From contig NZ_JAOEGB010000014.1 of assembly GCF_025420585.1 (NCBI RefSeq), forward strand, positions 1 to 64,000: a DNA stretch of 64,000 bases, given 5' to 3'. The notes beneath the pieces are model-generated. The model made no database searches and was not told the DNA's origin. It saw only the letters and a list, made by a program, of their open reading frames with translations. The translations under genes were made by a program, and so were the position numbers. Shown piece after piece: positions 7,806-10,737 of this stretch; position 1 is the stretch's first letter, and each line of letters starts with the position of its first letter. The DNA is from Planotetraspora sp. A-T 1434 (GTDB lineage: Bacteria; Actinomycetota; Actinomycetes; Streptosporangiales; Streptosporangiaceae).

Positions 7806-7947
7806 CTGTCCATTGTCGCGCCCATTGGGAACAGAGAAGTACATGATCAACGGGACAGATAGGGGGTAGGCTAAAGGGCGGCTCGACACTGATGTGGTAA
7901 GTTAGGTGGGCTTCGTCCCTTCTCGTGGCGATAGGAGGTGGTCCGGG

Positions 7948-8049
7948 ATGAATTCTGGTGATCCCGTCAGTACGTGCTCGCGCACGTACGTCGTGCGCAC
8001 TCCCGACCACTTCACAACTGAGCCCGAGGGGCAGCTCACGCCTGCATAA
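7948..8049 (+). CDS. 33-residue leader ORF upstream of corA
   Basis: ATG preceded by AGGAGGTGGTCCGGG, one of the strongest Shine-Dalgarno sequences in the window, opens a 33-codon frame (MNSGDPVSTCSRTYVVRTP, then DHFTTEPEGQLTPA) that ends 56 bases before the CorA start. The peptide has three Pro near its ends, two consecutive Thr and no domain. Two overlapping, mutually exclusive hairpins lie inside the frame. By analogy with the short leader peptide CorL upstream of Salmonella corA, it may couple translation of the leader to expression of the channel. That analogy concerns architecture only; the peptides are not related in sequence. Its expression is not proven. Confidence 0.55.
   Translation: MNSGDPVSTCSRTYVVRTPDHFTTEPEGQLTPA
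7970..7998 (+). promoter_or_regulatory. Two competing hairpins inside the corA leader ORF
   Basis: Hairpin A pairs 7970-7977 with 7982-7989 (GTACGTGC / GCACGTAC, 8 bp, loop TCGC). Hairpin B pairs 7980-7986 with 7992-7998 (GCGCACG / CGTGCGC, 7 bp, loop TACGT). They share bases 7980-7989 and cannot form together. Ribosome position on the leader ORF could choose between them. No poly-U follows, so a translational or Rho-dependent mechanism would be more likely than intrinsic attenuation. Confidence 0.45.
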
Positions 8050-8105
8050 AGGGGTGACATCACGTCGCGCGTGGAGCGTGCCGGCTCGGGCGGGAAGGGA
8101 CCGCC

Positions 8106-9221
8106 ATGCGCTCCTCAACGCTGTTCCCCCGCATCAACAAGCACAGCCGCGTTCTCCCCACTCGCCTCAGCGCATCCGTGACCGCCAAACTGGATGGACA
8201 GTGCGTGCCACCCAGCAACTCACTCGTCGAGTTCGGCGCGTACATCGGCGGCAAGAAGGTCGCCGCCGGCGGCATCCCCGAGGCGGTCAGCCTCGTCCGT
8301 GAGCACAACAACGACAGCCCGGTTCCCGACGCCTACGTGTGGGTCGGCCTGCACGAGCCCGCCGCCCCCGAGGTCGAGTGGCTCGCGGAGGTCTTCGGCC
8401 TGCACCCCCTGGCCGTCGAGGACGCCATCAAGGCCCACCAGCGGCCCAAGGTCGAGCGGTACGGCGACTCGCTGTTCGTCGTCCTCAAGACCGTGGCCTT
8501 CCTCGACCACGAGGTGCTGACCGCCAGCAGCGAGATCATCGGCACCGGCGAGATCATGGTGTTCGTCGGGCCCGACTTCGTCGTGACCGTACGGCACGGC
8601 AGACACTGCCCGCTGGCCGACGTGCGCGAGAAGCTGGAGGACAAGCCCAAGCTGCTGAGCCGCGGGCCGACCGGCGTGCTGCACGCGATCGCCGACCACG
8701 TCGTCGACAAGTACCTCCACGTCGCCGACCTGATGCAGGCCGAGCTCGAAGAGGTCGAGGCGGCCGTCTTCGCCGAGGTCAGCTCCCGCGACATCAACAG
8801 GATCTACCAGCTCAAGCGGGAGATGCTGGAGCTCAAGCGGGCCGTCGGCCCCCTGCAGACGCCCTTCAACGCGCTTCCCCAGCGCCGCATGATCCCGTCC
8901 GACATGCGGGAGTACTTCCGCGACGTCGGCGACCATCTCTCCCGGGTGTGCGAGCAGGTCCAGGCCTCGAACGAGCTGTCGGACTCGATCCTGCAGGCCG
9001 CCCTGGCCCGCTCGAACGCGCTGGCCAACGAGGACATGCGGAAGATCTCCTCCTGGGTGGCGATCATCTCGGTCCCCACGATGATCGCGGGCGTCTACGG
9101 CATGAACTTCGAGCACATGCCCGAGCTGAAGGCCGTCTATGGATATCCGCTCGTCATATGCGTCATGGTCGTCGCCTGCACCCTTCTCCACCGGGCCTTC
9201 CGCCGCAACGGCTGGCTCTGA
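8106..9221 (+). CDS. corA: CorA-family magnesium/divalent cation channel
   Basis: Protein of 371 residues, typical for CorA. A long cytoplasmic N-terminal alpha/beta domain (VGLHEPAAPEVEWLAEVFGLHPLAVEDA) is followed by the stalk helix region and two C-terminal membrane helices separated by the diagnostic GMN motif (332-334, VYGMNFEHMPEL). The C-terminus is basic (HRAFRRNGWL). It forms a pentameric inner-membrane channel that moves Mg2+ down its electrochemical gradient. The ATG has GAAGGGA five bases upstream. The first 40 residues are variable, so an internal start is possible. The short leader ORF and alternating hairpins upstream suggest post-initiation control. Confidence 0.92.
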   Translation: MRSSTLFPRINKHSRVLPTRLSASVTAKLDGQCVPPSNSLVEFGAYIGGKKVAAGGIPEAVSLVREHNNDSPVPDAYVWVGLHEPAAPEVEWLAEVFGLHPLAVEDAIKAHQRPKVERYGDSLFVVLKTVAFLDHEVLTASSEIIGTGEIMVFVGPDFVVTVRHGRHCPLADVREKLEDKPKLLSRGPTGVLHAIADHVVDKYLHVADLMQAELEEVEAAVFAEVSSRDINRIYQLKREMLELKRAVGPLQTPFNALPQRRMIPSDMREYFRDVGDHLSRVCEQVQASNELSDSILQAALARSNALANEDMRKISSWVAIISVPTMIAGVYGMNFEHMPELKAVYGYPLVICVMVVACTLLHRAFRRNGWL

Positions 9222-9327: not shown

Positions 9328-10527
9328 ATGAGAGAGGCGATGCCCGGTCTGGTGACGTATCCCATCGTCCGTGAGCGCCCCTTCGATCCGCCGGACGAGC
9401 TGAGACCGCTGCGAGCCGAAGCCCCCATCTGCCGCATGGCGTACCCGGACGGCCACGAAGGCTGGCTGGTGACCGGGTACGCCGCGGTCCGCGCCGTCCT
9501 CGCCGACCCCCGTTTCAGCACCCGCCCCGAGCTCCTCCACTCGCCGATCCCCCAGCGGATGGCCCAGTTCAAAATGCTCCCGGTGCCACCGGGCTTCTTC
9601 CTCCGGATGGACCCGCCCGCGCACACCCGCTACCGGCGGCTGCTCACCGGCCAGTTCACCGTCCGCCGGATGAGGCAGCTGGAGCCGAGGATCGAGGAGA
9701 TCACCAACGGCCGCCTCGACGCCATGGAGCGCGCGGGCGGCCCCATCGACCTCGTCCAGTCGTTCTCCCTGCCCATCCCCTCGCTGGTGATCTGCGAGCT
9801 GCTCGGCGTGCCGTACGACGACCGGGTGCGGTTCCAGCGGGACTCCGCGGTGATGCTGAACCTCGAATCGACGCCCGACCAGGTGATGTCGGCCATGACC
9901 GACCTCCTGACCTACCTGCGGGACCTGGTGCGGCGCAAGCGCGTGGAGCCGGCCGACGACCTGCTCAGCGGCCTCGTGTCCGGCGGCGAGCTGACCGAGG
10001 AGGAGATCACGGGCATGGCGCTGCTCCTCCTCATCGCCGGTCATGAGACGACGGCGAACATGCTGGCGCTCGGCACGTTCGCGCTGCTGCGCAACCCCGC
10101 CCAGCTCGCCGCCGTACGCGATGACCCCGCTGTGGTGGAGGACGCCGTCGAGGAGCTGCTGCGCTACCTCACGATCATTCACATCGGCCCGGTGCGGACC
10201 GCGCTGGAGGACGTCGAGCTGGACGGTCACCTCATCAGGGCGGGGGAGTCGGTGACGCTCTCGCTGCCCGCCGCCAACCGCGACCCGGAGCGGTTCGCCG
10301 ATGCCGAGGACCTCGACGTCACACGGTCGGCCCACGGCCACCTGACCTTCGGCCACGGCATCCACCAGTGCCTCGGGCAGCAGCTCGCCAGGACCGAGAT
10401 GCGCGTCGCGTACCCGGCCCTGCTGCGCCGCTTCCCCGGGCTGCGCCTCGCCGTACCGGCCGAGGAGGTCCCGATGCGCAGCAACATGTCGATCTACGGG
10501 GTGCACCGGCTGCCGGTCACCTGGTAG
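9328..10527 (+). CDS. Cytochrome P450
   Basis: Soluble bacterial P450 of 399 residues. The I-helix oxygen-activation motif AGHETT (237-242), an ExxR in EELLR, and the heme ligand loop FGHGIHQCLGQQLAR with Cys348 are all present. Such enzymes hydroxylate small lipophilic substrates or secondary-metabolite intermediates using electrons from a ferredoxin, and the matching ferredoxin gene starts 12 bases downstream, forming a two-gene unit. An AAGGAG lies about nine bases before the ATG. The 106-base upstream region is AT-richer than its surroundings (around 9269-9295) and likely contains the promoter. No biosynthetic cluster surrounds it, so the substrate cannot be inferred. Confidence 0.93.
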   Translation: MREAMPGLVTYPIVRERPFDPPDELRPLRAEAPICRMAYPDGHEGWLVTGYAAVRAVLADPRFSTRPELLHSPIPQRMAQFKMLPVPPGFFLRMDPPAHTRYRRLLTGQFTVRRMRQLEPRIEEITNGRLDAMERAGGPIDLVQSFSLPIPSLVICELLGVPYDDRVRFQRDSAVMLNLESTPDQVMSAMTDLLTYLRDLVRRKRVEPADDLLSGLVSGGELTEEEITGMALLLLIAGHETTANMLALGTFALLRNPAQLAAVRDDPAVVEDAVEELLRYLTIIHIGPVRTALEDVELDGHLIRAGESVTLSLPAANRDPERFADAEDLDVTRSAHGHLTFGHGIHQCLGQQLARTEMRVAYPALLRRFPGLRLAVPAEEVPMRSNMSIYGVHRLPVTW

Positions 10528-10539
10528 GGGGGTGAGGTC

Positions 10540-10737
10540 ATGAAGATCCACGCGGACACCGGCCGCTGTGTCGGCGCGGGGATGTGCGCGCTGAGCGTGC
10601 CGGAGGTCTTCGACCAGAGCGAGGACGACGGCACGGTCGTGCTGCTGGATCCCGAGCCGCCCGGCTCCCGCGAGGCGGCCGTCCGCCGCGCCGTCCAACT
10701 CTGCCCCTCCGGAGCCCTCTCGATATCTGAGACCTGA
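10540..10737 (+). CDS. [3Fe-4S] ferredoxin, P450 redox partner
   Basis: Ferredoxin of 65 residues with Cys10, Cys16 (CVGAGMC) and Cys55 followed by Pro. This three-cysteine pattern binds one 3Fe-4S cluster, with the usual second cysteine replaced by Ala or Gly as in actinomycete P450 ferredoxins. The protein is acidic in the middle. It begins with ATG twelve bases after the P450 stop and overlaps its downstream spacing with a GGGGTGAGG ribosome site, so the two are translated from one message. It should carry single electrons from a ferredoxin reductase encoded elsewhere to the P450. Confidence 0.93.
   Translation: MKIHADTGRCVGAGMCALSVPEVFDQSEDDGTVVLLDPEPPGSREAAVRRAVQLCPSGALSISET

Follow-up and report, generated by a model that had tools for sequence, protein, structure and literature searches.

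Translation of a short leader open reading frame (ORF) is already established as a way of sensing Mg2+ in enteric bacteria. In corL-corA of Salmonella and E. coli, the upstream ORF (uORF) is situated in a stem, stem A, that hides its Shine-Dalgarno (SD) sequence, ribosomes load during transcription, and translation of corL, with its proline and acidic codons, is inverse to the expression of corA, with the involvement of Rho (PMC11552253). Two further leaders act upstream of other Mg2+ transport genes, namely MgtL, where ribosomes drop off at EPDP under low Mg2+ (PMC11282234), and the mgtP leader of mgtCBR, which responds to proline charging (PMC3641672). The design of corL is described for the mgtA leader as well, and in mgtL the proline and acidic codons render elongation sensitive to Mg2+ (PMC11552253, PMC11282234).

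By analyzing a stretch of 64,000 nucleotides from Planotetraspora sp. A-T 1434 (the window; the parts of the leader and corA are on its forward strand), we found a leader that can be compared to these. A leader ORF of 33 codons (MNSGDPVSTCSRTYVVRTPDHFTTEPEGQLTPA, 7948-8049, with ATG at 7948 and TAA at 8047-8049) follows a very strong SD (AGGAGGTGGTCC, 7933-7944) and ends 56 nt before the start of corA, all of which had been correctly described in the original prediction. The corA gene (8106-9221) encodes an Mg2+ transporter of 371 aa, identified as CorA by Pfam PF01544 (E 3.5e-58), while its match to TIGR00383 is slightly below the family cut-off. The corA SD (GGGAAGGG, 8092-8099) is conserved in the compared leaders (A2), and the GGAGGTG of the leader SD is invariant in the same set. 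Judging from the sequence, corA is followed on the same strand by a probable cytochrome P450 gene and by one resembling ferredoxin genes (9328-10737).

Two stems, both missed by the original prediction, are the best-supported structures of the leader. P1 is formed between the leader's own SD region (7933-7947, AGGAGGTGGTCCGGG, paired from 7934 to 7947) and a complementary strand inside the ORF (8002-8013, CCCGACCACTTC). P2 joins 8022-8041 to 8069-8091, through an outer helix of GCCCGAG (8022-8028) and CTCGGGC (8085-8091) and an inner one of CACGC (8037-8041) and GCGTG (8069-8073), and its 3' arm abuts the corA SD. To judge from this layout, the enteric Mg2+ sensor may have a counterpart here that evolved independently. 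Shared with corL-corA (PMC11552253) are the short uORF in the 5' leader of corA, sequestration of the uORF SD by a stem of which the 3' strand follows later, a C-rich or pyrimidine-rich stretch and a further stem upstream of corA. The stems themselves differ, however, the actinomycete ORF ends inside P2, and E. coli corL starts with UUG; moreover, the Mg2+ response and the role of Rho have been shown in enterics, while the actinomycete leader is known from sequence comparison. As in mgtL-mgtA (PMC11282234), acidic-proline codons occur within codons 1-6 of a leader ORF upstream of an Mg2+ importer, but with one Asp-Pro the window peptide falls far short of EPDP in strength, and the transporter is CorA instead of the P-type ATPase MgtA. 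The mgtP attenuator of mgtCBR (PMC3641672) also has leader proline codons near the base of a stem and an Mg2+ transporter downstream, but differs in its proline-charging response, operon and structures, and its likeness is closer to a second class of leaders, treated last, than to the window leader. In Mycobacterium tuberculosis (PMC12810186), an actinobacterial Mg2+-related leader likewise carries a conserved uORF, but one controlled by an M-box riboswitch, whereas the target here is corA and a covariance-model search for the M-box (RF00380) gave no match in the region or in its own genome. A leader ORF controlling an Mg2+ transporter is a known kind of regulator, and the novelty concerns the sequence, the stems and the lineage; in the open-access literature, no description of a leader like this one from an actinomycete was found.

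A DNA search of 40 relatives turned up the region in a further seven genera of the family. At an E threshold of 0.01, a sequence-only model of an 84-nt core had matches in 191 out of the 299 genomes of the family, and a pattern scan of named genomes identified 81 stretches, distributed over Nonomuraea, Microbispora, Streptosporangium, Planomonospora, Planobispora, Planotetraspora, Spongiactinospora, Sinosporangium and relatives. A shorter model (R2, 44-nt core), built on diverse members, matched 232 out of the 347 genomes sampled from the order (Streptosporangiaceae sensu lato) with one copy each, including one genome from another family (G025, with the peptide MSPDDPSG...), and only one marginal match came from outside the order, where 395 genomes from the rest of the phylum were searched. 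At every informative locus, i.e. 144 loci and the window, corA was located 3' of the leader on the same strand, at a distance of 135-300 nt from the leader SD. In the genomes sampled, the 44-nt core is thus an order-level, single-copy and corA-linked element. This linkage weighs on the question of the signal. The leader, if translated, could respond to a cue other than Mg2+, e.g. tRNAPro charging, other amino acids, EF-P or translation stress, or set a constitutive level of corA. Proline-coding leaders can indeed respond to tRNAPro charging, as mgtP does (PMC3641672), and the rare codons at the leader start would be in line with such a role, but with an element tied only to corA, and never to amino-acid genes, at every informative locus we find it highly unlikely.

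The predicted ORF held up when compared across genomes, both in its start and in its first codons. Of 115 distinct sequences compared, 107 start with ATG and eight with GTG, and all 115 keep frame 0 open over 25 codons or more, as against approximately 62% of Markov shuffles. Codons 3-9 are conserved across relatives and the consensus of the early codons reads M-x-[P/S]-G-[D/E]-P-x-S-[T/S]-C, with early acidic and proline residues at Asp5 (or Glu, 114/115) and Pro6 (111/115); a few relatives (L008, L114, L115) miss the Asp-Pro. Length changes near the start keep the frame (minus 3 in L116, plus 3 in L096 and L126), and the leaders with a GTG start have lost one spacer base with start and frame still kept. 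Past about codon 10 the frame drifts among species (L193, L160, L222, L186), suggesting that most of the leader peptide is unimportant. The whole peptide as a functional product was accordingly rejected, given the shifted frames in Planomonospora, Streptosporangium and Nonomuraea sediminis in which P1 is kept. By this comparison, a genuine conserved leader ORF linked to corA is strongly supported, and what is kept is the start, the early codons and the open frame, not the full peptide.

Some of the constraint appears to act on the nucleotides. Directly after the start, codons 2-8 (7951-7971) include a series of rare codons ending in T, AAT TCT GGT GAT ... AGT. No synonymous change is seen across genera at Asp5 (GAT, 113/113) or Ser8 (AGT, 113/113). 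The rare codons are kept there in 113 out of 115 sequences, in spite of the genome's predominant use of GAC and AGC/TCC; in the window, GAT makes up 10% of Asp codons and AGT 2% of Ser codons. That most of the conserved codons are without synonymous variation points to constraint partly at the nucleotide level, while Gly4 is encoded by GGT or GGC and Pro6 by all four of its codons. A riboswitch-like sensor, in which the strictly conserved nucleotides ATGANYYCTGGYGATCC...CAGT in P1 would bind Mg2+ or a ligand and the output would be the accessibility of the leader SD, would agree with the frozen Asp5 and Ser8 codons against such a background, and also with the retention of the core where the hairpins discussed below are lost. 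The start and frame are, however, kept too, including the GTG starts and in-frame indels, synonymous variation is found at Pro6 and Gly4, and no Rfam family matched the region or its counterparts in five relatives. We therefore regard a sensor of this type as quite unlikely.

P1 and P2 are strongly supported by comparison. In 48 diverse leaders, 96.6% of the cells were paired, with two-sided changes at 10 of the 23 pairs. None of 500 shuffles reached any of five measures and slid partners, used as a control, were paired in 26-50%, controls which are not probabilities, since the structure was read off the same alignment and the shuffles ignore relatedness. P1 has a different 3' strand in Actinomadura-like leaders (CCGTCCGCCTCC and variants), and compensating forms are found also in leaders from other families. 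Compared to shuffles, the duplex between the SD and its downstream strand was favoured in every group average (mean z about -1.3 to -2.2), and was significant alone in few single sequences. Folding z was -0.32 for the 118-nt region and -2.55 for the 206-nt leader; as the stability of the former is unremarkable given its composition, the evidence beyond chance comes from the comparison.

The original prediction had instead proposed a translation-coupled switch made up of two overlapping, mutually exclusive hairpins of 8 and 7 bp in the ORF. Both are present in the sequence. Hairpin A (7970-7989) pairs GTACGTGC (7970-7977) with GCACGTAC (7982-7989) around the loop TCGC, inside P1, and hairpin B (7980-7998) pairs GCGCACG (7980-7986) with CGTGCGC (7992-7998) around TACGT, and they exclude each other by having 7982-7986 in common. 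In all 19 Microbispora/Planotetraspora-like leaders both have at least 5 bp, and B (80% of cells paired) displays modest covariation, which is what speaks for alternating states. In A, 87% of cells are paired with covariation not above that of shuffles, and it occurs in none of the 13 Actinomadura-like leaders; B reaches at least 5 bp in 19 out of 45 Nonomuraea-like sequences, being lost in most, and in one out of 13 Actinomadura-like ones. While a switch coupled to translation is as such strongly supported, A and B as its conserved core are ruled out by the covariation and the counts per genus, and of the two stems expected to covary only B does so, modestly. From the alignment, A and B are features within the P1 enclosure and not a conserved switch, and that they represent the alternating states is extremely improbable.

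Two other pairings were considered and rejected. P3, a possible hairpin at 8089-8105 (GGCGG/CCGCC), encloses the corA SD and shares bases with P2, with which it is exclusive; although 94% paired, it shows no covariation, is weak in folding simulations and was discarded as an off state. An alternative pairing of the P1 and P2 3' strands, spotted by eye, was small in models. The P2 loop also holds a strongly conserved SD-like octamer (8052-8059, GGGGTGAC, GAGGTGAC in relatives), about 50 nt 5' of corA, behind which no conserved ORF was found.

The position of the leader stop codon would tie translation to both stems. In all 48 leaders it is situated 12-48 nt past P1 and inside P2, in the 5' arm in 25 and in the loop in 23, with no instance upstream of P2 or in its 3' arm. 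A ribosome completing the ORF would consequently have to open P1 and, in most models, P2. In the modelled free leader P1 forms at 0.85. With a ribosome modelled at the stop codon, mean P2 falls from 0.70 to 0.15, and P2 opens in 33 of the 48 models.

We propose that the corA mRNA opens with a translated leader ORF that would serve as a sensor of early elongation. Ribosomes would load co-transcriptionally, before the P1 3' strand emerges, as they must if P1 subsequently hides the leader's own SD. Under normal elongation, the ribosome would cross the P1 3' strand and stop in P2, thereby keeping both stems open, while early failure at the conserved Gly-Asp-Pro and the rare-codon run, or a lack of initiation, would let P1 and P2 close. 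Complete translation of the leader may then hold corA down, one possible route being access of Rho to an unoccupied C-rich stretch, and corA would be turned on at low Mg2+, which destabilizes ribosomes at such codons. By analogy with the enteric leaders, we consider it somewhat probable that corA is repressed by leader translation and relieved when elongation fails at low Mg2+. Two features would fit the enteric scheme, namely the Asp-Pro of codons 5 and 6 and, at the P1 3' strand, the C-rich stretch.

The opposite sign, with a finishing ribosome that melts P2, frees the corA site and so turns corA on, and with P1 limiting the use of the leader, finds some grounds in the P2 3' arm adjoining the corA SD, in the location of every leader stop in P2, and in the models, where P2 is opened as above and the wider corA ribosome site opens in 13 and closes in three. 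Exposure of the corA SD itself has no consistent sign, however, being up in 17 and down in 14 of the 48 models. Impaired translation at low Mg2+ would furthermore cut Mg2+ uptake, which is physiologically backwards, and the direction in enteric corL is the opposite. Such positive coupling thus appears rather unlikely, and repression by leader translation is preferred since it fits the physiology as well as the enteric precedent.

The C-rich, G-poor stretch invoked for repression (7998-8027, with 14 C and 4 G in 30 nt) is a candidate Rho-loading (rut) segment. At this position C minus G is at least 0.15 in 48 out of 48 sequences, although the C-richness of the P1 3' strand is partly a consequence of its pairing with the G-rich SD. 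No intrinsic terminator was found in the leader region. Upstream, an extended -10-like element (TGTGGTAAGTT, 7893-7903) about 30 nt 5' of the leader SD is the putative promoter of leader and corA; TGTGNTANNTT is found in 40 out of 62 leaders, mostly 28-30 nt upstream of the SD, and a simple sigma-70 scan did not flag the element at 7893-7903. A second TAnnCT element, GGGTAGGCTA (7866-7876), is situated about 25 nt upstream of TGTGGTAAGTT and recurs in many relatives. It is perhaps a tandem promoter, or the promoter of the divergent purD-like gene.

If this leader, conserved across tens of actinomycete genera, is a structural analogue of the enteric ones, ribosome instability at low Mg2+ would be a general, repeatedly evolved means of Mg2+ sensing, and high-GC antibiotic producers would have a concrete regulator of an Mg2+ importer, with the leader as an unlisted RNA family.

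Lastly, a second class of leaders was found before CorA paralogues approximately 40% identical to the window CorA. The two further paralogues in the window's own genome (L247 and L249, in G000:C67 and G000:C50) are without a window-type leader, and neither class is visible at the paralogues L230, L231 and L238-L241. A genome-wide pattern search that was not aimed at corA found the second class only before corA, about 100-300 nt upstream of the paralogues (L233, L234, L236, L243, L245, L246 and L250-L254). Two unrelated, self-hiding and proline-bearing leaders before two CorA subfamilies would strengthen the tie to Mg2+ transport. Tentatively, and with less confidence than in the repression itself, we suggest that actinobacteria evolved leader-ORF Mg2+ sensing independently of enterics at least twice, with GDP (type I, in the window) and QPPS/RPPS (type II) leaders that both combine SD-hiding with difficult early codons. 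The second-class ORFs, M..[Q/R]PP[S/R].., consist of 8-13 codons and encode peptides such as MSQPPSTN, MSRPPSSGC and MDGQPPSCP. Their SD, GGAGGTGAGGC, pairs with GCCAACCTCC, i.e. the Gln/Arg-Pro-Pro codons themselves, and the hiding strand, GCC[A/G]ACCTCC, thus encodes the Pro-Pro.
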